From IMG/VR virus record IMGVR_UViG_3300042485_001100, positions 1 through 54,560 of that record: DNA of 54,560 nucleotides; one strand, 5' to 3'. The stretch comes from a virus. A model generated the notes under the pieces. That model saw only the letters and a program-made list of their open reading frames with translations, did not search any database and was not told the origin of the DNA. Both the position numbers and the translations under genes were made by a program. This document shows positions 3,646 through 54,560 of the stretch, piece by piece. Positions within the stretch are counted from its first letter, which is position 1; the number at the start of each line of letters is the position of its first letter.

Positions 3646-3830
3646 TAACCTGTAATAAATGTAATGGAAGAGTATTTGTAGATAGAGTGTTTTCTCAGAA
3701 GCTACATATGGAATTGTTTTGCATCATGTGCGGCAAGCGCTGGATGATGAATAAAAATACAAACAAGTTGGGCAAATGGCTGGAAAAGATAGAGGAAGAT
3801 CAATTAAAACGATACGGTATTTCTTCTTAA
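3642..3830 (+). CDS. Small zinc-ribbon protein
   Basis: 62 residues from the ATG that overlaps the preceding stop (ATGA, 3642-3645); a longer in-frame start at 3612 would lie inside the upstream gene. Two CxxC knuckles (CNKC near residue 4 and CIMC near 33) suggest one zinc site. A Lys/Glu-rich helical tail follows. Its 3' end overlaps the next gene by 55 bases. Confidence 0.7.
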   Translation: MITCNKCNGRVFVDRVFSQKLHMELFCIMCGKRWMMNKNTNKLGKWLEKIEEDQLKRYGISS

Positions 3831-4258
3831 ACGGGAAAATACATAAGGTCATTAGCTCATCAAGAGCCAAAGACCAAGTAATTGCTTGGTGCTATCCAGA
3901 TGCAAAAAGAGTTTTGTATCCTTATTCAGAAGTTAATAAACATATGGGCAATGCATACAGCGTTGTACAAGTTGCAGAAATGTTAAATAAGCATAGAGTA
4001 ACAATACAGGATTATATATTAGAGGAAAAGATTAAGACTCCTCAAAAAATATATCCAATAGGAAGCCTTTCTAAAGAAGGCTGGTCTAAGTATATGTTTA
4101 GCGAAGAAGATATATTAGATTTACATCAATATATTTTAGATTCTGGCCATTCTAATAATATGCCATCAAAGGCAGAATTATTGGCTCTTCTCAAACACAG
4201 CTTTGTATTGTATACTAAGACAAGTAGCGGGTTCGTACCAGTTTGGAAGGCGGATTAA
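3776..4258 (+). CDS. MerR-like helix-turn-helix DNA-binding protein
   Basis: 160 residues. The N-terminus (RSIKTIRYFFLNGKIHKV) is a basic beta-hairpin-like segment. Residues about 62-82 (YSVVQVAEMLNKHRVTIQDY) form a MerR/excisionase-type helix-turn-helix, followed by the wing-like PIGSLSKEGWSKYMFSEEDI typical of such modules. Probably binds DNA at or near the replication region. The overlapping start at 3776 is kept because the motif M-x-x-K-x-R-S before RYFF would be lost with any later start. Confidence 0.72.
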   Translation: MAGKDRGRSIKTIRYFFLNGKIHKVISSSRAKDQVIAWCYPDAKRVLYPYSEVNKHMGNAYSVVQVAEMLNKHRVTIQDYILEEKIKTPQKIYPIGSLSKEGWSKYMFSEEDILDLHQYILDSGHSNNMPSKAELLALLKHSFVLYTKTSSGFVPVWKAD

Positions 4259-29663: not shown

Positions 29664-29692
29664 TTGACATGTCCGAATTGTGCTAGTATAAT
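29664..29692 (+). promoter_or_regulatory. Consensus promoter TTGACA-17-TATAAT for tRNA-Leu
   Basis: Perfect -35 and -10 hexamers with optimal spacing (29664-29669, 29687-29692), 14 bases before the tRNA 5' end. Confidence 0.82.
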
Positions 29693-29706
29693 AGTATTAG
29701 CACCAT

Positions 29707-29790
29707 GCCCGTATGGCGGAATCGGCAGACGCAGCAGACTTAAAATTTGCCTCCAACACTGGAGTGTCGGTTCAAATCCGACTATGGGTA
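29707..29790 (+). tRNA. tRNA-Leu (TAA anticodon)
   Basis: Acceptor GCCCGTA/TATGGGT (two G-T pairs), D-arm with GGCGGAATCGGCAGACGC, anticodon stem GCAGA/TTTGC, loop CTTAAAA (anticodon TAA), a long variable arm typical of class II tRNA, T-arm TCGG-TTCAAAT-CCGA. Reads UUA, the commonest Leu codon here. Confidence 0.9.
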
Positions 29791-29806
29791 CTGAACAGGA
29801 AGTATA

Positions 29807-30037
29807 TTGTTAAACTTAACAGAGCTTGGGGTAGAAGTTCTAATCAAAAAAAATAAGCACAAAAACATATATGCGTTTTGGGACAACTATTCCTTGGTTG
29901 TTTGGCAAAAAGATAACTCTGGCTTTACAAGCTCAAAAGGGATGTTTAAAAATAGTTGGGGAGTGGCAGAAAAATTTTCAGTCAATAACGACGGAGTTTG
30001 GAAAGTGCCATCAAAGTATGTCAAATTTTTTAAATAG
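29807..30037 (+). CDS. Hypothetical protein, 76 residues
   Basis: TTG start at 29807 with AGGAAG upstream, right after tRNA-Leu. Beta-rich, with Trp/Phe and Lys (IYAFWDNYSLVVWQKDNSGF, FSVNNDGVWKVPSKYVKFF). No family recognised. Overlaps the whiB-like gene by 20 bases. Confidence 0.6.
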   Translation: MLNLTELGVEVLIKKNKHKNIYAFWDNYSLVVWQKDNSGFTSSKGMFKNSWGVAEKFSVNNDGVWKVPSKYVKFFK

Positions 30038-30329
30038 TCTAGGCGTAGACCAAGATAACTTTGAGTGGAAAGATCTAGCCTTGTGTTTAGGTATGGACAC
30101 AAATTTATTTTTTGAACTGTATGAGTCAGATGTAAACATTGCAAAAAGCGTTGACCAGGCCTGCATGTCTTGCCCAGTTATCTCTATGTGCTATAACTAT
30201 GGCACAGAGTCAGATAATTACGGAGTTTGGGGTGGAGTATACTTAAGCTCTGGCAGCCCAGATAAATCAAAAAATTCACACAAAACTAAAGAAGTAGTAA
30301 AAGCTTTAAAGAAAAAACACGGTGCTTAA
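30018..30329 (+). CDS. WhiB-like iron-sulfur transcriptional regulator
   Basis: 103 residues from ATG 30018; an in-frame start at 29871 would run across the upstream gene. Four cluster cysteines C23, C49, C52, C58 with the canonical C-x2-C-x5-C spacing (ACMSCPVISMC), followed by the GVWGG turn (69-73) and a basic C-terminus (KEVVKALKKKHG). WhiB proteins are confined to Actinobacteria and their phages, bind 4Fe-4S, and interact with sigma-A region 4. It may redirect host transcription or sense redox state. Confidence 0.88.
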   Translation: MSNFLNSLGVDQDNFEWKDLALCLGMDTNLFFELYESDVNIAKSVDQACMSCPVISMCYNYGTESDNYGVWGGVYLSSGSPDKSKNSHKTKEVVKALKKKHGA

Positions 30330-40451: not shown

Positions 40452-40988
40452 ATGAAGACAGTAGGAAACAAGATAGGAAACTTTTCTGTAGTTGGCGTTA
40501 AGCCAGGCGCATTAAGTTATGAAGACAGCTCTTTTGAAGTAATAAATCAAGACTCTTTCCCTGGAAAGTGGAAGATCATTGTTTTTTATCCAAAAGACTT
40601 TACTTTTGTTTGTCCAACAGAGATTGTTGCGTATGATGCATTAGTAAATGATTTTAACGATAGAGATGCTGTGCTTATGACTGGTTCAGTTGACAACGAA
40701 TTTTGTAAAGTTGCATGGCGTAACTCACATGATGATCTACGTAAGACTAATTCTTGGTCATTTGCAGATACAGGCCACCAGCTAGCAAACGATCTTGGAG
40801 TACATCACTCGTCTGGGGTTACATATCGTGCTACATTTATTATTGATCCAGAAAATACAATTCAGCATGTGACTGTAAACAATTTAGATGTTGGCAGAAA
40901 CCCAGATGAAACTCTTCGTGTACTGGACGCACTTCAAACAGGAGAGCTGTGTGCCTGCAATAGATCTTTGGGCGGAGAAACTTTATAA
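40452..40988 (+). CDS. ahpC: Peroxiredoxin (AhpC)
   Basis: 178 residues from ATG 40452 with TAGGAG upstream. Peroxidatic C54 in FTFVCPTE; resolving Cys at C167/C169 (ELCACNR). Actinobacterial AhpC lacks the AhpF partner and is reduced by AhpD, which is encoded next in a TAATG overlap. It lowers hydrogen peroxide and organic peroxides. The in-frame start at 40398 lies in tRNA-Lys and is rejected. Confidence 0.93.
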   Translation: MKTVGNKIGNFSVVGVKPGALSYEDSSFEVINQDSFPGKWKIIVFYPKDFTFVCPTEIVAYDALVNDFNDRDAVLMTGSVDNEFCKVAWRNSHDDLRKTNSWSFADTGHQLANDLGVHHSSGVTYRATFIIDPENTIQHVTVNNLDVGRNPDETLRVLDALQTGELCACNRSLGGETL

Positions 40989-41500
40989 TGACATGGGTAG
41001 ACCAACTTAAGGATTCTATTCCAGAATATGCTAAAGATATCAAGTTAAACCTTGACGCCGTAATCAATAGATCATCTGTTGATGCAGAGCATGCTACGTA
41101 TATTTCAATAGCAGCAGCATTCGCAACTGGCAATGGAAAGTTGCTTGCCTTTATTACTGCTAATGCAAGCGATGAAGTTGAAAAAAATGCCGCTCTTACT
41201 GCTGGGGCTATCATGGCACAAAATAACGTTTGGTATCCATTTATTGAAATGGCTGATGACGTAAATTTAAAGGGGCTACCAGCTCAATTAAGAATGAATG
41301 CTATTACTTCTCACGGAGGTACAACTAAAGGTAAGTTTGAAGCTTATTCGTTAGCATCATCCATTGTTGGCAAGTGTCATTTTTGTGTTAAAGCACATTA
41401 TGAAACATTAAAAGAAGAAGGATATAGTGTAGAACAGTTGCGTGATATCGGAAGAATTGCAGCAACAATTAATGCATTATCCAAGATACTTTCAGCATGA
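40988..41500 (+). CDS. ahpD: Alkylhydroperoxidase AhpD
   Basis: 170 residues. CHFCVKAH gives the AhpD motif C130-x2-C133-x3-H137. All-helical carboxymuconolactone-decarboxylase-like fold. It reduces AhpC, normally through lipoamide systems. Coupled start overlaps the ahpC stop. Confidence 0.92.
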   Translation: MTWVDQLKDSIPEYAKDIKLNLDAVINRSSVDAEHATYISIAAAFATGNGKLLAFITANASDEVEKNAALTAGAIMAQNNVWYPFIEMADDVNLKGLPAQLRMNAITSHGGTTKGKFEAYSLASSIVGKCHFCVKAHYETLKEEGYSVEQLRDIGRIAATINALSKILSA

Positions 41501-48761: not shown

Positions 48762-48857
48762 TTATACTAAGATAAACATTACTATGTAATTGAGCTTATC
48801 ATAATCATAACCGTAATGTCAATAGGGCCATATGGACTTATATGAGACATAGCGCAT

Positions 48858-48907
48858 ATTCCAGCGATTTTGTCAATAGCGTCGTAAATGGCATATTTTG
48901 CCCACAT
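48858..48907. repeat. 50-base direct repeat, copy 1
   Basis: Begins ATTCCAGCGATTTT and ends TTTTGCCCACAT. Matches the copy at 49026-49075 at 39 of 50 positions, and partly the promoter region at 49745-49794. Confidence 0.75.
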
Positions 48908-49025
48908 TGTCAACATATTTTGTATAAAAAAATGATATAAATTTTGACAGATTCTGGCTATATTATGCCTAATTCATTATATGTTTTAATAGATAATATA
49001 TTCATTTTATTATATTCTGCCAAAT

Positions 49026-49075
49026 ATTCCAGCGATTTTTTAAGCTTGGTCGTAAACGGATAATTTTGCCCACAT
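49026..49075. repeat. 50-base direct repeat, copy 2
   Basis: Same ends as copy 1 with a diverged middle. The conserved blocks are ATTCCAGCGATTTT, GTCGTAAA-GG and TTTTGCCCACAT. Confidence 0.75.
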
Positions 49076-49192
49076 GCCCATACACAAAAAGATATCCACA
49101 GGACCTGTGTAGATCCTATGGATATCTTGGGCTATGTGATCAAGAGTAATACTTAGATAAATATATCCTTTCGGTCTTGATCTATATTTTGG

Positions 49193-49468
49193 CTATGCTT
49201 CTATTGGTTCAAAGTTAGCAATGTAATCTGCTAGTCTATCTGCCATGAATAGGGCTTCTGTTGTAACCCCTTCTTCCCACGCATTATCTAATTGACTTGC
49301 AGTTTGCTTGATAATTTCTACGACTAACTCCATTACCTTAGATTGAGTATAGTATCCACAACCATTTACTAATGCTCTAGCCATGATAGTTGGATTAAAC
49401 CAATGACTATCCATAGCCTCCAATACTTTCTCAGCCGCTTTTGTTTCGATTGATGATGTCTTTGCCAT
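49193..49468 (-). CDS. Hypothetical helical protein, 91 residues
   Basis: ATG at 49468 with AGGGG upstream. All-helical (SIETKAAEKVLEAMDSHWF, MELVVEIIKQTASQLDNAW, EALFMADRLADYIANF). Last gene of the leftward block, with its own promoter. No family recognised. Confidence 0.66.
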   Translation of the reverse strand: MAKTSSIETKAAEKVLEAMDSHWFNPTIMARALVNGCGYYTQSKVMELVVEIIKQTASQLDNAWEEGVTTEALFMADRLADYIANFEPIEA

Positions 49469-49493
49469 GTCCGCCCCTGTTCTTTAACTATTG

Positions 49494-49522
49494 ATTGTAC
49501 CAAAAATAAGAGACGAGGTCAA
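49494..49522 (-). promoter_or_regulatory. Promoter TTGACC-17-TACAAT in a terminator arm
   Basis: On the minus strand TTGACC (49522-49517), 17 bases, TACAAT (49499-49494). The -35 is inside the 3' arm of the terminator 49512-49547. Confidence 0.65.
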
Positions 49523-49547
49523 GGACCAACGAAGCCCTGACCCCGTC
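49512..49547 (-). terminator. 13-bp intrinsic terminator of the Lsr2-like gene
   Basis: GACGGGGTCAGGG and CCTTGACCTCGTC (minus strand) pair with two G-T pairs around a 10-base loop, followed by TCTTATTTTT. Begins 8 bases after the stop at 49555. Confidence 0.82.
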
Positions 49548-49554
49548 CCTGGTT

Positions 49555-49701
49555 TTACTTAGCCTTCTTTGTAACTTCGGCTGTAAACTTAACGCCGTTC
49601 TTCTCCGCCTCTGCTAGAGCTACCTTTGCTGCTCCTGAGAATCGACCACGTACGCCGACTGTAATGCCCTGCTGCTTTAGATATTCACGCTTTGTTGTCA
49701 T
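49555..49701 (-). CDS. Lsr2-like mini DNA-binding protein
   Basis: 48 residues with AAAGGGG upstream. REYLKQQGITVGVRGRFS aligns by eye with the Lsr2 C-terminal DNA-binding domain (R-x-W-A-x-x-x-G-x-x-V-x-x-RGR-x-x), the AT-hook-like RGR core being intact. It lacks the Lsr2 dimerisation domain. It could compete with host Lsr2 at AT-rich DNA, silencing or de-silencing genes. Own promoter and terminator. Confidence 0.6.
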   Translation of the reverse strand: MTTKREYLKQQGITVGVRGRFSGAAKVALAEAEKNGVKFTAEVTKKAK

Positions 49702-49733
49702 TTGTTGTCCCCTTTCAAGAGATAGTTTTTTTA

Positions 49734-49762
49734 ATTATAGCAACTTTCCACGGTTTTGTAAA
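49734..49762 (-). promoter_or_regulatory. Promoter TTTACA-17-TGC-TATAAT
   Basis: Minus strand TTTACA (49762-49757), 17 bases, TATAAT (49739-49734). Lies within a 50-base segment (49745-49794) resembling the repeats at 48858 and 49026. Confidence 0.66.
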
Positions 49763-49790
49763 TAGTTGCCGTAAGCCATTTTTTCTGCCC

Positions 49791-49925
49791 TTATGAAATT
49801 TGTTCTACTCTGTCTTTAATTAGTTTAGAGATAATGTTATGGGCTTCGATGTTTTCAGTTTCGCTGCCACCCCATAGCAATTGTTGAGCCTTGTTTAATT
49901 GATCATTAATATACTGGTCACTCAT
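49791..49925 (-). CDS. 44-residue helical protein
   Basis: ATG at 49925 overlaps the preceding stop. MSDQYINDQLNKAQQLLWGG then a second helix (EAHNIISKLIKDRVEQIS). No family recognised. Confidence 0.58.
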   Translation of the reverse strand: MSDQYINDQLNKAQQLLWGGSETENIEAHNIISKLIKDRVEQIS

Positions 49926-50235
49926 CTTCATCTTCTGCCTCCTCTTCATCTAGCGGGTCCGTCATGTACCCACGGTTTAACATCCATTCCATTACTTCTT
50001 CATAGTGTTGCTCTGCTCCATATTCTAGAGAGAAGCCCTGTCCAGCCTGCACAGCCTCACATAGGTGGTCCCACATCTCATCCTCAGTAGCGAGCACGGT
50101 CCAGTCTGTTGTGTCTGCTTCGAGGAAGTTCTTGATAGTTGACCATGTGTACAGCCAAACCATAGAGAGACCAAGGTCAGTGGTGCCTAGAATCTCTAAA
50201 CATTTGTTTAGTTTATCTTTATCTTCAGGCTTCAT
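49918..50235 (-). CDS. Acidic hypothetical protein, 105 residues
   Basis: Start ATG 50235 (an upstream in-frame ATG at 50253 lacks support). Helical, Trp-rich (LSMVWLYTWSTIKNFLEA, DEMWDHLCEAVQAGQG), ending in a strongly acidic tail (PLDEEEAEDEDE). The tail resembles DNA-mimic or partner-binding tails. Unknown function. Confidence 0.66.
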   Translation of the reverse strand: MKPEDKDKLNKCLEILGTTDLGLSMVWLYTWSTIKNFLEADTTDWTVLATEDEMWDHLCEAVQAGQGFSLEYGAEQHYEEVMEWMLNRGYMTDPLDEEEAEDEDE

Positions 50236-50497
50236 TACGTGCTCCAATCGCAAACGATAGTTGGTATGTTAGATTATATAGTTCTACTAGCATATCTAAG
50301 CGCCCTTCACATTCTGTGCGGACCATAGAGTCCATTGCCTCTTCGGACCTTGCTTCTTGTTCTAATGCGCTTGCCAAGTCTTCCTCAGCAATTAACATTA
50401 GATTCTTTAGTTCACCGTGCATTATATCTAATCCATTAACACCTGCATTAACTAAACGTTGCAAATGGGGCGGGAGCCCAATGTCTTCTGAATTCAT
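50225..50497 (-). CDS. Hypothetical helical protein, 90 residues
   Basis: TAATG overlap with the secreted peptide gene. Two long helices (ELKNLMLIAEEDLASALEQE and LDMLVELYNLTYQLSFAIGA). No family recognised. Confidence 0.65.
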   Translation of the reverse strand: MNSEDIGLPPHLQRLVNAGVNGLDIMHGELKNLMLIAEEDLASALEQEARSEEAMDSMVRTECEGRLDMLVELYNLTYQLSFAIGARNEA

Positions 50498-50673
50498 TAG
50501 TTAGAGCGTCCTTTCCTAGAGTATCTACATTCGAACTTGTATACATATTTAGGTCCGTGTGTAGTGTATTCTTTAATTTGTCTTGATTTGCACGTTCGAA
50601 CTCCCGCGTCTGCTGGGGCGGACATAATAGGAAGCAATCCTAGTACTAGACTTGCTACAATAAGTTTTCTCAT
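50497..50673 (-). CDS. 58-residue exported Cys-containing peptide
   Basis: Signal peptide MRKLIVASLVLGLLPIMSAPADA with an AxA cleavage site, leaving about 35 basic residues (GVRTCKSRQIKEYTTHGPKY ... FECRYSRKGRSN) with two cysteines that could form one disulfide. It has its own TGTCAGTGG-type promoter. A secreted basic peptide of this size in the early-type block could act on the cell wall, on neighbouring cells or as superinfection exclusion. Confidence 0.72.
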   Translation of the reverse strand: MRKLIVASLVLGLLPIMSAPADAGVRTCKSRQIKEYTTHGPKYVYKFECRYSRKGRSN

Positions 50674-50858
50674 TATTCATACCTTTCGTTAGAGTTATTC
50701 ATTATATCAGTAGCCACTGACAATAAATGCCTGGTTGCCTCAATTTGTCCTGGTATATCAATTACATTGATAGATTCAGGATTACTTTCTAAATCTTGTT
50801 CTAAACTAATTAGATGTAACTTCATATACTCTAGGAATCTACTAGTCTTGGTAACCAT
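50673..50858 (-). CDS. Hypothetical helical protein, 61 residues
   Basis: ATG 50858 (TTG 50861 is an alternative), overlapping the previous stop. Coiled-coil-like (FLEYMKLHLISLEQDLESN). Contains the promoter of the 58-residue peptide. No family recognised. Confidence 0.62.
   Translation of the reverse strand: MVTKTSRFLEYMKLHLISLEQDLESNPESINVIDIPGQIEATRHLLSVATDIMNNSNERYE
50701..50722 (-). promoter_or_regulatory. TGTCAGTGG-N7-TATAAT promoter (d)
   Basis: TGTCAGTGG complements 50714-50722 and TATAAT 50701-50706, separated by 7 bases. The leader carries AACGAAAGG before ATG 50673. Confidence 0.72.
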
Positions 50859-51027
50859 CAAAATACCCCTCTGCCCATAAGCCTTGAAGAAAACTAACTG
50901 TTTTTTCTAGTCCGTTAACCATCAAGCTTTGGTCTACTAAATTGGAGGCGGATCGGATATAGAATAACTTAGCGTCATGAACTGAGTTAATCATCTCATC
51001 TATATCTGCCATTTCATATCCTAGCAT
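50842..51027 (-). CDS. Hypothetical protein, 61 residues
   Basis: Starts overlapping the preceding stop by 7 bases. Helical (IDEMINSVHDAKLFYIRSA, LEKTVSFLQGLWAEGYFDGY). No family recognised. Confidence 0.62.
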   Translation of the reverse strand: MLGYEMADIDEMINSVHDAKLFYIRSASNLVDQSLMVNGLEKTVSFLQGLWAEGYFDGYQD

Positions 51028-51167
51028 TCAATTGCCTCCATATATTTAATCATAGTATTAAGTGTTATATGAATGTGACAATCACAATCATCTGATGTAT
51101 CTCTGTCGTCAAAATGGATTAAGTTGTCGTCATACATATAATCAATGAGTTCTTGGGTGGTAATCAT
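51021..51167 (-). CDS. 48-residue Asp/His-rich protein
   Basis: ATG 51167 overlaps the preceding stop. Contains FDDRDTSDDCDCHIHI, a metal-binding-looking Asp/Cys/His stretch. No family recognised. Confidence 0.58.
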   Translation of the reverse strand: MITTQELIDYMYDDNLIHFDDRDTSDDCDCHIHITLNTMIKYMEAIEC

Positions 51168-51379
51168 AATAGAAACTCATCTCCCTCTATATAGCCATAG
51201 TATTCGTTATACTGTTGCTTTAATTCAGGTGAAGCATATTCCATAAATCTAAATTCAGCATATGCCTCGCCTTCCTCTAAATTATTATAAGACCATTGGT
51301 CAAATAGTTCTTCTGCTATTTCTTGTTGCATAGCACCTGTAATGTGCTCTGCTATTGTATCTATAAATAGTTCAGCCAT
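51164..51379 (-). CDS. Hypothetical protein, 71 residues
   Basis: ATG 51379 in a TAATG overlap with the Api92-like gene; the longer frame to 51430 lies inside that gene. Acidic, Tyr/Phe-rich (LKQQYNEYYGYIEGDEFLL). No family recognised. Confidence 0.64.
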   Translation of the reverse strand: MAELFIDTIAEHITGAMQQEIAEELFDQWSYNNLEEGEAYAEFRFMEYASPELKQQYNEYYGYIEGDEFLL

Positions 51380-52155
51380 TATACTTCCGCCTTTTCTGTA
51401 GATTCTAATAATACCATGTGGGTCTGACATTCTGCCATAGCCTTTTCATCCTGCCATGAACCCTCATTGCATTCAGAGCAGAATTCACCGCAGTCATTTT
51501 CGCAATATGCAACACAATCAAAAGACTGGCAAGCATAGCAACGGTTCTCATATTCCAAGAGTTCCTTTACTTCACCACGGACAATCTCATATTCCCCACC
51601 CCAACCTGTTTCTTCCTCAAACTCTAAAGTAAGCAGGCAGTTGGGAACAAGATTAGATAGTTTAGTTAGAATAGTTACAGCAGGTGACCATGCAGTTTCA
51701 TACTTATATACAACCCAGTTGTCATCACCTTCTGATTTATATTCAAGTAGTTCTGTATTAGGATACTTGTCATCATCTGATACGGCTACATCCCACTTAG
51801 TTCCCCAGTTGGAGTTATTCCACGAATACCAATCCTTCTGAGTCTTAGCAAACTCAACAGATTTGCGGAACCAATCAGGGTCATTCTTAATATCGATATC
51901 ACCACGAGAAGGCTGGCAGGCATATTCCTCATCAGTAATGCCGTCATCCTTATATGAGTGGATATTGTGGAATGCAAAGACAGGATTAGAATAAGTTACT
52001 TCTTTAATTTTGGTGGGGAACCCATGAGCATTAATATCACCCATACCATATGTCTCTTGTGCTAATGTAAAAGGCTTATTCAATCTATCTTTAATCATAT
52101 CTACCTCAGACTTAGGTCCTTGGATAGTTAATGTGTTATAACACCAATTTGGCAT
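51379..52155 (-). CDS. Api92/YubB-like protein with C-terminal cysteine cluster
   Basis: 258 residues from ATG 52155, which has AAAGGAT upstream and the TGTCAGTGG-type promoter. Starts MPNWCYNTLTIQGP, the signature of DUF1281/Api92-like proteins (ferredoxin-like fold), with WDVAVSDDD and EFEEETGWGGEYEI further on. The C-terminus adds CYACQSFDCVAYCENDCGEF, a dense cysteine cluster that suggests a zinc finger. Function of the family unknown; common on plasmids and phages. Confidence 0.8.
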   Translation of the reverse strand: MPNWCYNTLTIQGPKSEVDMIKDRLNKPFTLAQETYGMGDINAHGFPTKIKEVTYSNPVFAFHNIHSYKDDGITDEEYACQPSRGDIDIKNDPDWFRKSVEFAKTQKDWYSWNNSNWGTKWDVAVSDDDKYPNTELLEYKSEGDDNWVVYKYETAWSPAVTILTKLSNLVPNCLLTLEFEEETGWGGEYEIVRGEVKELLEYENRCYACQSFDCVAYCENDCGEFCSECNEGSWQDEKAMAECQTHMVLLESTEKAEV

Positions 52156-52182
52156 TTTATATCCTTTCGTTGATATGTGATA

Positions 52183-52204
52183 ATTATACATTGGACCACT
52201 GACA
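52183..52204 (-). promoter_or_regulatory. TGTCAGTGG-N7-TATAAT promoter (b)
   Basis: Complement of 52196-52204 and 52183-52188, 7 bases apart. Leader CAACGAAAGGATATAAA precedes ATG 52155. Confidence 0.74.
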
Positions 52205-52471
52205 AATGGAATAGGATTGGCATGTGATACATGCCACATTGTGAGGTTTAGATCAAACCTAACACACATAGTGTGAGCTTTATGATCAAGATCACAAAAT
52301 TCCAGGGAAAATTATATTGACTTCTTAAAAGAAATATATTACCCTTATCTTTTGCGGGCCATAGGATATTTGTCAAGCTTCTACAGGCTGCTAGAGTATC
52401 ACCAACGAAAGTAAAAGAACTCTGCTTTATTTAACCCCTGGCCTGCGAAGACTGATAGGGGCACCTTTAAA
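52205..52471. other. Intergenic stretch without a gene
   Basis: No credible ORF. Holds ATTCCAGGGAAAA (52298-52310), a variant of the element at 48858, 49026 and 54089, and a CCCCT...AGGGG inverted repeat near 52435-52462 that may end the leftward gene 52472-52876. Confidence 0.5.
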
Positions 52472-52876
52472 TTAATCTGCTAGGATTAGTTCCTGTGCAT
52501 ATTTAGACACAAATGCATCCAGTGTCTGTGTAAAGATTGGTTCATCCGACACACCCTTGATTTTATTATTATCGCTAAAGGGTGCCTCTTCATGAAGACT
52601 AAATGTATTGGCCTCGAAGTTGATGATTGGAATCTTGTGCTCATTGTCTGAGCGCTGATTAACCAGCATTCCCCATCCAGTTTCGCTACGCCACTCATCT
52701 TGAATTAAATTAGATATAGCAATACGTGTTGCATATGATTCGTCATTCCAACGAGGACGAGCCTTGTCTACAGCACGAGCCAAAAGGTCCAGCATGCCTG
52801 AGCCAGCCCAGTGCCCATATACTACAATTGTATCGCCATTAGATTGTGTAAACCCAAAGTTTGCACGGTCACCCAT
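52472..52876 (-). CDS. Conserved actinophage protein (MGDRANFGF type)
   Basis: 134 residues. Starts MGDRANFGFTQSNGDTIVVY then GHWAGSGMLDLLARAV and DESYATRIAISNLIQDEWRS, ETGWG. This arrangement is common in early regions of actinobacteriophages; function is not known to me. Follows the next gene upstream closely, in one operon. Confidence 0.78.
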   Translation of the reverse strand: MGDRANFGFTQSNGDTIVVYGHWAGSGMLDLLARAVDKARPRWNDESYATRIAISNLIQDEWRSETGWGMLVNQRSDNEHKIPIINFEANTFSLHEEAPFSDNNKIKGVSDEPIFTQTLDAFVSKYAQELILAD

Positions 52877-52878
52877 GT

Positions 52879-53076
52879 TTATTCCGCCATTTCTACTAGT
52901 TGAGGTACTTCTTCCTTTTTGTTTAATTCTATCACTTCGTAAGCGATTTTGTCAAGGCTAGGCTTGAACTTGTTAAAGTGGTGGCCACAGAAAGAAAGCT
53001 CTCCGCTAACCATCTTAATTAAATACATTGCGGGTACTACTGAGTTACACTTATCGCAACCAATCCATTCACTCAT
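52879..53076 (-). CDS. DUF7455-like zinc protein (CDKC...CGHH)
   Basis: 65 residues. IGCDKCNSVVPAMYLIKM and LSFCGHHFNKF: the C-x2-C...CGHH layout found in small actinobacterial and actinophage proteins. Likely one zinc. Overlaps the upstream gene by 4 bases. Confidence 0.76.
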   Translation of the reverse strand: MSEWIGCDKCNSVVPAMYLIKMVSGELSFCGHHFNKFKPSLDKIAYEVIELNKKEEVPQLVEMAE

Positions 53077-53219
53077 AGTGTTCCACCTTCTATCATGTCA
53101 GATAGACGATCAAGAATCCATGTATCAATATCTGCGATATCAATCTCTGATAGTTTTTCTATAATTTCTTCACGGGCAAACTTGTACCCGTCTTCAAAAC
53201 CATCTTTGTAGTCTGACAT
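53073..53219 (-). CDS. 48-residue acidic helical protein
   Basis: ATG 53219 with GGAGATA upstream. MSDYKDGFEDGYKFAREEII: the YxxGFxDGxxxAR pattern is common in small phage proteins. No function assigned. Confidence 0.62.
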   Translation of the reverse strand: MSDYKDGFEDGYKFAREEIIEKLSEIDIADIDTWILDRLSDMIEGGTL

Positions 53220-53227
53220 ATTATCTC

Positions 53228-53431
53228 CTAATATCCTGTGCTTTTGTATTCGCTTACATAAGACTCAGTTAAGTTATACTTATCTCTAAGTCTACTTACT
53301 TTCTCAATACTACCAGTTCCAACGTTGAATGTCAATGCGCTCATTGCTTCAGGGTCAAGACCGTTTATTTCTGCATCCCAATAGGCTCTCTCCATGGAAA
53401 GCCTATCAGGAGCGGTCAACTCAAAGTACAT
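53228..53431 (-). CDS. Conserved actinophage protein, 67 residues
   Basis: ATG 53431 overlaps the preceding stop. MYFELTAPDRLSMERAYWDA, DPEAMSALTFNVGTGSIEKV, DKYNLTESYVSEY. Compact alpha/beta; no function known. Confidence 0.68.
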   Translation of the reverse strand: MYFELTAPDRLSMERAYWDAEINGLDPEAMSALTFNVGTGSIEKVSRLRDKYNLTESYVSEYKSTGY

Positions 53432-54048
53432 TAGTCGACCTCGATTGAATCAATAGATGATGACATATATGTAATTGGTTCATCATATGATACTGTATCG
53501 AAGTCTGTATCATGAATTGAATTAATTGCATCTTCTTCGTTTCTAGCATTAACAGTAACTGAATATTGAACTGTTACAGTCAACTCAAATTCATTTGTTA
53601 ATTCAAAACCGCAGATGCCTGCAATTTCTTCTGCTTGGAATTCTGACAAAGATTCGTCATCAAGACCTTCCAGGGTGAATACTTTCATGTCATCACGTAA
53701 CTTATTTAAAGTTCCTGCAGTCGCGTAATCACGTTGTGTAACACGTTGAATGTGCTCTTCTAACTGTGTAATGCGGGCCCTATTTTCAACTAACTGTGAC
53801 TCAAGGAATTCCCGTGTCATGTAGTGATTATCTGTAGTTGTTTCCATTTTATCCTCTTTCGTTGTTGTTGGTGTAATTGTAGCATGCTCCACTGACACTA
53901 ATGTCGTATTGCGTCCACATGGGCATGTGAGTTGTGTCACACCTGAAGGAAAACCAAATCCATCAGATGATGTTAGTTCTATTAATGAATCGCATTCATC
54001 TGGGTCACAGACAAAGGTATATTTACTTGATACTAGTTCGTTGGTCAT
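53431..54048 (-). CDS. Zinc-ribbon protein with nested internal start
   Basis: 205 residues from ATG 54048, 7 bases after TATAAT, so leaderless; the frame continues to 54114 but with no signal. Residues 1-50 include CDPDECDSL and LTCPCGRNT, a zinc ribbon. An internal promoter (TACAAT 53876-53881) and a good ribosome site (AAAGAGGAT) precede ATG 53847 (METTTDNH), which would give a separate 138-residue product without the ribbon. The shared C-terminal part has a coiled coil and a ferredoxin-like FELTVTVQYSVTVNARNEED. Confidence 0.68.
   Translation of the reverse strand: MTNELVSSKYTFVCDPDECDSLIELTSSDGFGFPSGVTQLTCPCGRNTTLVSVEHATITPTTTKEDKMETTTDNHYMTREFLESQLVENRARITQLEEHIQRVTQRDYATAGTLNKLRDDMKVFTLEGLDDESLSEFQAEEIAGICGFELTNEFELTVTVQYSVTVNARNEEDAINSIHDTDFDTVSYDEPITYMSSSIDSIEVD
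53876..53897 (-). promoter_or_regulatory. TGTCAGTGG-N7-TACAAT promoter (c), internal
   Basis: Complement of 53889-53897 and 53876-53881, 7 bases apart, lying inside the zinc-ribbon ORF and upstream of the nested start 53847. Confidence 0.72.
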
Positions 54049-54055
54049 GAAGAGA

Positions 54056-54077
54056 ATTATACAGGGTCCCACTGACA
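54056..54077 (-). promoter_or_regulatory. TGTCAGTGG-N7-TATAAT promoter (a)
   Basis: Complement of 54069-54077 and 54056-54061, 7 bases apart, 7 bases before ATG 54048. ATTCCAGGGATTTT lies upstream at 54089. Confidence 0.72.
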
Positions 54078-54154
54078 TTTGTCTATAGATTCCAGGGATT
54101 TTTTTATGTGACACTTAACACATTTTTTTGTCCCTAAATATTGCGGGCGATTTG

Positions 54155-54228
54155 CGATCCATAACGGACTTGAACCGTCGGCCTCTACCGTGACAGGGTA
54201 GCGCTCTAACCAACTGAGCTAATGGACC
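54155..54228 (-). tRNA. tRNA-Asp (GTC anticodon)
   Basis: Minus strand: acceptor GGTCCAT/ATGGATC, D-arm GCTC...GAGC, anticodon stem CTACC/GGTAG, loop CTGTCAC (GTC), T-arm GACGG-TTCAAGT-CCGTT, discriminator G. Only tRNA in the leftward block, and GC-richer than the others. Confidence 0.9.
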
Positions 54229-54230
54229 TA

Positions 54231-54263
54231 GAAAAAATTGTGAGCAGTTTTTATTCATGCTCA
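54231..54263 (-). terminator. Hairpin terminator after the DUF932-like gene
   Basis: Minus strand TGAGCA (54263-54258), 11-base loop, TGCTCA (54246-54241), then CAATTTTTT. It separates the DUF932-like gene from tRNA-Asp, so the tRNA depends on readthrough or an unseen promoter. Confidence 0.7.
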
Positions 54264-54275
54264 GGAATTTATTTA

Positions 54276-54560
54276 TTAAAACGCAGAAATTAATTTCTTA
54301 ATTTTATTTTTTTCTGCGGTAAGAATTGGGTCAAACCCTGATGCACCAGCCATAAGTGTTTCAGAATTTCCGCGACCTGAACGATAATAGTCAAGGCGTT
54401 CAGTTAGTGCATTGAACGCACCCCACTTAGTTCCCTTGATGTTAGCGTTAGTTGGTGAGTTGTGATAAAGATTGTCAAGAAGCACAACCTTATTCTCCCA
54501 CTTAGTTAGCGCAACCTTAGCAGAATCTTTATCTGGCTTAGGATAAATTGTCTGAATCAA
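54276..54560 (-). CDS. DUF932-like protein, C-terminal fragment (truncated by window end)
   Basis: 94 residues visible, open at the right edge; the first Met seen is probably internal. NIKGTKWGAFNALTERLDYYRSGRG matches the N-T-x-WGAYNAVTEYxDH end of phage/plasmid DUF932 proteins, which are usually 250-350 residues. Function unknown; often in early or accessory regions. Confidence 0.7.
   Translation of the reverse strand: MIQTIYPKPDKDSAKVALTKWENKVVLLDNLYHNSPTNANIKGTKWGAFNALTERLDYYRSGRGNSETLMAGASGFDPILTAEKNKIKKLISAF

Follow-up and report, generated by a model that had tools for sequence, protein, structure and literature searches.

A Conserved Box in the Promoter Spacer Marks One Gene Block in a Freshwater Phage Lineage with a Likely Actinobacterial Host

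Gene Block and Box Promoters

The stretch of DNA analyzed here (the window) is the IMG/VR virus record IMGVR_UViG_3300042485_001100 over its full length of 54,560 nt; the element in question is a nonamer, TGTCAGTGG (the box, with TGTCAG as its six-letter core), which recurs in the promoters of a leftward block of small open reading frames (ORFs) at the right end of the record. In full relatives, the block runs several kb further, past the point at which the record ends. Its products are mostly unknown small proteins, together with GP88-family, DUF932, and Api92-like (DUF1281) proteins. The block and its box promoters are located as follows:

48782..54560, minus strand: window part of the leftward small-ORF block
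54056..54077, minus strand: box promoter 1, TGTCAGTGG-N7-TATAAT; an ATG (54048) stands 7 nt past the -10, likewise arranged in the relatives G013 and G010
53876..53897, minus strand: box promoter 2, TGTCAGTGG-N7-TACAAT, 180 bp downstream of promoter 1
52183..52204, minus strand: box promoter 3, TGTCAGTGG-N7-TATAAT, preceding the DUF1281-like ORF 51379-52155
51408..51429, minus strand: fifth box promoter, TGTCAGACC-N7-TATTAT, preceding ORF 51164-51379
50701..50722, minus strand: box promoter 4, TGTCAGTGG-N7-TATAAT, upstream of ORF 50497-50673

An earlier model-made reading of the window (the original prediction) had described four leftward promoters sharing this nonamer. Exactly four copies were indeed found in the window (54069-54077, 53889-53897, 52196-52204, and 50714-50722), all on the minus strand; seven bases separate each from a downstream TATAAT (three sites) or TACAAT (one site). 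The fifth site, at 51429-51408, had been missed; it is kept in relatives. The full pattern, TGTCAGTGG-N7-TATAAT/TACAAT, gave no matches in dinucleotide-preserving shuffles of the window. The nonamer alone, with one mismatch allowed, occurred 10 times against 7.5 expected, which is chance level; thus, the composite of nonamer, spacing, and -10 is the signal. The leader sequence AACGAAAGG, common to some promoters within a genome, would fit duplicated promoter cassettes carrying a box without regulatory function; however, across 122 non-redundant sites from the lineage, the flanks are random while the box and its spacing are invariant, and chance predicts no such site in the window. Cassette duplication or coincidence is therefore hardly credible.

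The box had been assigned to the spacer rather than to the -35 site, and this placement held: if transcription starts at the conserved A 7 bases past the -10, which is likely, the box lies at -28 to -23. A leader sequence ending in GGAT had been claimed for three of the promoters; AACGAAAG was present in three leaders, but GGAT in only two, and AACGAAAG belongs to an ordinary ribosome-binding site (GAAAGG/GAAAGAGG). The promoter at 54077 is predicted to produce a leaderless mRNA because the ATG sits 7 bases past its -10.

The promoters at 54077 and 53897 serve one reading frame (53431-54048, minus strand): a leaderless form of 205 amino acids would come from the upstream promoter, and the downstream promoter would yield a form of 138 amino acids with an in-frame start at 53847. 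A distance of 179-180 bp between two box promoters is repeated in many relatives. The same strand also carries a canonical box-less promoter, TTGACC-N17-TACAAT at 49522, before ORF 49193-49414; it is kept in G013 at 73869.

Box Architecture and Block Specificity

The motif was not scattered away from promoters: a search of 80 relatives (1.31 Mb), of the kind that the original prediction had called for, recovered 253 distinct contexts of TGTCAGTGG, and all of them (253/253) carried TANNNT at exactly +7. TGTCAG-N10-TAYAMT forms the conserved core; WAA precedes TGTCAG, and TGN usually stands ahead of the -10. Among the TGTCAG-to-TAYAMT pairs on the block strand of 13 genomes or fragments, the spacing was N10 in 117, and any other distance was seen in at most two. 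The profile of the 122 non-redundant sites was WAA-TGTCAG-T-S-S-N4-T-G-N-TAYAMT, followed 7 nt past the -10 by the A that is the likely start. Variants with the same spacing (TGTCAGTGC, TGTCGGTGG, TGTCAGTCC, TGTCAGACC, and others) reduce the core to TGTCRG at N10. Box positions 7-9 vary (TGG, ACC, TCC, TGC, CCC), and the interchange of G and C at positions 8-9 looks like minor-groove or shape readout. The layout of the class is (optional TTGACA)-WAA-TGTCAG-TSS-N-(TG)N-TAYAMT-~6 nt-A, in which TSS denotes the bases T, G/C, and G/C. A sigma factor with a short spacer was rejected because of this geometry: in promoters of alternative sigma factors, 16-19 bp separate the upstream element from the -10, and the box lies at 10 bp.

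Within each genome, the strict pattern kept to a single strand of a single block: G013 had 13 sites (62.7-72.6 kb) and G010 had 14 (16.9-26.3 kb), with none in the remaining 100 kb. A looser -10 gave about 6-24 box promoters per relative and five in the window fragment. Pooling 16 records gave 178 occurrences of the box with TANNNT on the block strand; the opposite strand of the block had 2, and 19 lay elsewhere. The statement that rightward promoters lack the box was also true in relatives, where the opposite-strand promoters are box-less and of the extended -10 type, some with TTGACA at 16-18 bp. These data strongly support the box as a block-specific regulatory element.

Lineage, Likely Host, and Distribution of the Box

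The record (54.6 kb) has a GC content of 37% and encodes six tRNAs. The best match of its terminase among ~50,000 phage records was that of Streptomyces phage Kenrey (Stanwilliamsviridae), with 63% identity; both terminase and portal are homologous to those of described members of this family, with ~20-40 genes in common per genome. The proteins of the window include a DnaB-like helicase, primase, DNA polymerase, UvsX/RecA-like recombinase, Cas4-like nuclease, and WhiB-like protein. Relatives in IMG/VR reach 104-117 kb. The box phages thus appear to be a freshwater actinophage lineage related to Stanwilliamsviridae; an actinobacterial host is likely because a WhiB-like protein was present in 27 of 27 relatives tested and the relatives include Streptomyces phages. 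No sign of lysogeny was noted in the box phages, although no systematic search was made.

Genes of a peroxiredoxin (AhpC-like) and of an AhpD-like protein adjoin at 40452-41500 (plus strand). The peroxiredoxin is ~65% identical to its best matches, which are proteobacterial in the genome collection, and was discarded as an uninformative host indicator.

The exact motif was found at 120 IMG/VR loci, 109 of which had at least eight matches to proteins of the box lineage; the other 11 comprised two short related pieces and nine loci with one chance-level site. A spread of the motif to unrelated phages was accordingly rejected, as just single chance-level matches were seen. No cluster of box sites was seen in Gilson, in Rhodococcus phage Francesca, or in seven Streptomyces phages; a single genome among them had one chance match. 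Kenrey possesses WhiB and no box, and the promoter of its DUF932 ortholog reads TTGACA-N17-TAGTCT.

Within the lineage, the motif was not missing from relatives with the same genes: it was present in the block-bearing freshwater relatives, G043 included if altered -10s are allowed. G043 had been taken for a natural box knockout; this was rejected, as the strict pattern had missed its boxes, which are followed by -10s of the TAG/TAA type. G046 and G051 are fragments without most of the block. The lineage is deeply diverged, with terminase identity among box phages down to 53%; hence, the box is either old or shared by selection. On a terminase tree whose branching order is open, gain and loss of the box would take two changes, and a single origin is also possible.

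CRP/GlxR-Type Dyads Upstream of the Box

The original prediction had missed TGTGA-N6-TCACA dyads upstream of the box, first met as TGTGATGTGGCTCACA-like dyads in G043 and its neighbors. Three of them lie in the window:

54107..54122, minus strand: CRP/GlxR-type dyad TGTGTTAAGTGTCACA, one mismatch, center 37.5 bp upstream of the promoter 1 box
53926..53941, minus strand: CRP/GlxR-type dyad TGTGACACAACTCACA, exact, center 36.5 bp upstream of the promoter 2 box
52223..52238, minus strand: CRP/GlxR-type dyad TGTGGCATGTATCACA, one mismatch, center 26.5 bp upstream of the promoter 3 box

In the 16 records, 66 exact dyads were found in the block versus 3 elsewhere (0.60/kb versus 0.006/kb, ~100-fold); with control spacers, the core dyad occurred in the block four times (N5) and twice (N7). 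Of the 170 non-redundant box promoters, 62 had a dyad with no more than one mismatch within 110 bp, and the spacer controls gave 0 (N5) and 2 (N7). The distances from dyad center to box cluster at 26.5, 36.5, 46.5, 56.5, and ~67 bp. This 10-bp phasing gave Rayleigh p values of ~5e-10 (unique downstream-gene/distance pairs) and ~3e-7 (one value per gene family), both approximate because some relatedness remains in the data and a period had to be chosen. A minority of dyads is off-phase, at 41.5 and 49.5-53.5. In orthologous promoters of different phages, the dyad is displaced mostly by whole helical turns. The dyads thus share the class I arrangement: one helix face, at whole-turn spacing from the core promoter. 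Relative to the inferred starts, their centers fall at ~-64, -74, -84, and -95, which is 2-3 bp farther out than the -61.5/-71.5 series of E. coli.

The dyad consensus is identical to the CRP/GlxR consensus (PMC7999487), and helically phased upstream positions are another feature held in common with CRP/GlxR class I promoters; unlike in those promoters, the dyads stand here in phages and are combined with a spacer box. Neither a CRP helix-turn-helix (HTH) nor a cyclic-nucleotide domain was found in 19 phages, with control genomes positive. As the phages encode no CRP-family protein, the dyads are probably read by a host protein, and we regard them as predicted sites for a host regulator of the CRP/GlxR type.

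Candidate Box-Binding Proteins

Two conserved proteins of the window were considered as the box factor, for which each is plausible:

29871..30329, plus strand: WhiB-like protein, PF02467, E 1.5e-10
3776..4258, plus strand: HTH_17/MerR-like protein, PF12728, E 2e-4 (below the Pfam cut-off), ortholog of Kenrey gp53 "MerR-like"

The phage WhiB-like protein, named in the original prediction as one candidate regulator, might act on sigma-A region 4 as a box-dependent activator. WhiB proteins bind sigma-A, and WhiB occurs in every box phage tested (27/27); in addition, TTGACA-N18-TATAAT at 29664 stands ahead of the tRNA-whiB segment of the window. However, Kenrey shares WhiB and has no box, so that the candidate lacks specific support. 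Moreover, the WhiB proteins characterized so far work through sigma region 4, near or upstream of the -35, and contact DNA upstream of it, whereas the box lies in the spacer and is locked to the -10. We therefore consider WhiB an improbable box factor.

The MerR-like HTH protein was rejected as the box factor: its structure model was unusable (predicted local distance difference test score, pLDDT, of 46), no PDB relative was found by sequence, and box-less Kenrey has an ortholog.

The promoter at 29664 is of consensus type and precedes tRNA-Leu and whiB (29664-30329, plus strand). A second, better-scoring WhiB (E 5e-20) is encoded inside the block of G031 (88593-88784, plus strand).

Proposed Mode of Action

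A -35-like hexamer (at least 5/6 matches) abutted the box in 20 of the 122 box promoters (2.4 expected); this co-occurrence weakened the idea of the box as a replacement for the -35. In G043 (75.5-90.3 kb; L392-L393), the box and N10 are unchanged, and the third base of the -10 is a purine (TAG/TAA) in 11 of 13 block promoters; the -10s of its other strand are normal. Counting the absolute spacing and orientation, the scarcity of consensus -35s, and the pattern of G043 in favor of activation, we consider activation the probable role of the box and repression an unlikely one.

If it were an operator, the box would be bound by a phage-encoded repressor that silences host-driven early promoters later in infection: sigma-A polymerase (and host CRP) would use these promoters immediately, until blocked by the repressor in the spacer. 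Good extended -10s, which could work unaided, are mostly retained (58% TGN), near-consensus -35s are equally common in box-less promoters, and a phage activator would be unnecessary if host CRP drove the block early. Repression, however, requires neither the fixed N10 (117 pairs versus at most two at any other distance) nor an invariant orientation, and in G043 the -10s decay while the box stays; we judge a repressor operator to be a rather doubtful explanation.

For activation, we give about even credence to the following scheme, in which sigma-A-type extended -10 promoters carry a box for a spacer-binding activator and host CRP assists at about one third of them. The host sigma-A holoenzyme would read the extended -10, and a sequence-specific protein occupying -28 to -20 of the spacer would touch the polymerase and offset the missing or weak -35. 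This activator is probably phage-encoded because the box is limited to one phage lineage; another reason is that TGTCCGAWTTGT, a further element of the block, occurs also in contigs without homology to the box lineage and the box does not. From sites ~64, 74, 84, or 95 bp ahead of the start, a cyclic AMP (cAMP)-responsive host regulator of the CRP/GlxR type may add class I-like activation at about one third of the promoters. The outcome would be that the accessory or takeover genes of one block are turned on jointly, in step with the metabolic state of the host. It is possible, though we put it forward only tentatively, that a lytic actinophage lineage couples its takeover block to host cAMP in this way, through a new phage-encoded spacer activator and host CRP/GlxR on one helical face.

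Several points weigh against the activator scheme. About 64% of the box promoters have no recognizable CRP dyad. The rate of near-consensus -35s is not lower in box promoters (20/122) than in box-less extended -10 promoters (15/103), so that the box would be an added spacer element that need not replace the -35. The start site, timing, and direction of regulation are deduced from sequence. No box-binding protein was identified, and the two conserved candidates, WhiB and the HTH protein, both have orthologs in Kenrey. Lastly, the box may be read by a host-encoded protein, such as a sigma-A-associated factor of freshwater actinobacteria: the nearby CRP-type dyads need a host reader, so the block already leans on host factors, and the box persists through deep divergence of the phages (terminases to 53% identity). 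Yet the collection scan found the box numerous only in this phage lineage, whereas AATGTCCGATTTGTCC also occurs in contigs of unrelated phages, and we hold a host reader of the box to be unlikely, even more so than a repressor.

Gene control in phages of the abundant freshwater actinobacteria is little known; the literature found covers gene content and isolation. The box, N10, the extended -10, and the phased CRP dyads form a testable promoter grammar that marks one block in a widespread lineage. It predicts transcription starts, including those of leaderless mRNAs, and suggests that the cAMP/CRP status of the host may gate the phage program. The box itself can serve as DNA bait for finding a spacer-binding transcription factor.

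Comparison with Known Systems

The stoperators of cluster A mycobacteriophages are likewise many oriented copies of a short site in an actinophage genome; unlike the box, which is fixed at N10 from the -10, they occur genome-wide at no fixed distance from promoters. GcrA-type activators of Caulobacter resemble the proposed factor in binding between the -35 and the -10; their sites differ in being methylated GANTC.

The middle promoters of phage T4 (MotA/AsiA sigma appropriation; PMC6755090) share with the box class a phage-specific box near -30, a host-type -10, and many copies in one gene class. The MotA box is centered at -30/-31 and replaces the -35; the present box, at -28 to -23 (center near -25.5), differs in its fixed N10, its extended -10, and a -35 that can co-exist with it. 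The host of T4 also belongs to a phylum other than that of the likely box-phage host. Neither MotA nor AsiA was named in the phrogs and Pfam scans of selected proteins, and no search aimed at these families was made. In phage T1, host cAMP-CRP acts directly on phage promoters and represses a few of them in the lysogeny-lysis switch (PMC6737242). T1 is thus a precedent for host CRP at phage promoters; the phased dyads of the box lineage suggest activation of the whole block, not repression.

Other Elements in and around the Block

The element CGACACGCC/GGCGTGTCG was present in 70 copies in the blocks of the 16 records and nowhere else in those records; it lies in intergenic regions of relatives, e.g., at L208 (G013) and L392-L393 (G043), and one orientation is often found 14 bp upstream of the box. 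In the lineage, AATGTCCGATTTGTCC is often tandem and usually stands 32 or 23 nt ahead of the box; it was noted in the block of relatives and at L515, L536, L523, L484, and L531. A DnaA-box-like element, TTATCCACA, shows ~6-fold enrichment in the intergenic parts of the block of relatives. In the right arm of Kenrey (L221), the end of many leaders is formed by a G+C-rich hairpin and then CAAGCTT, whether or not a promoter is present.

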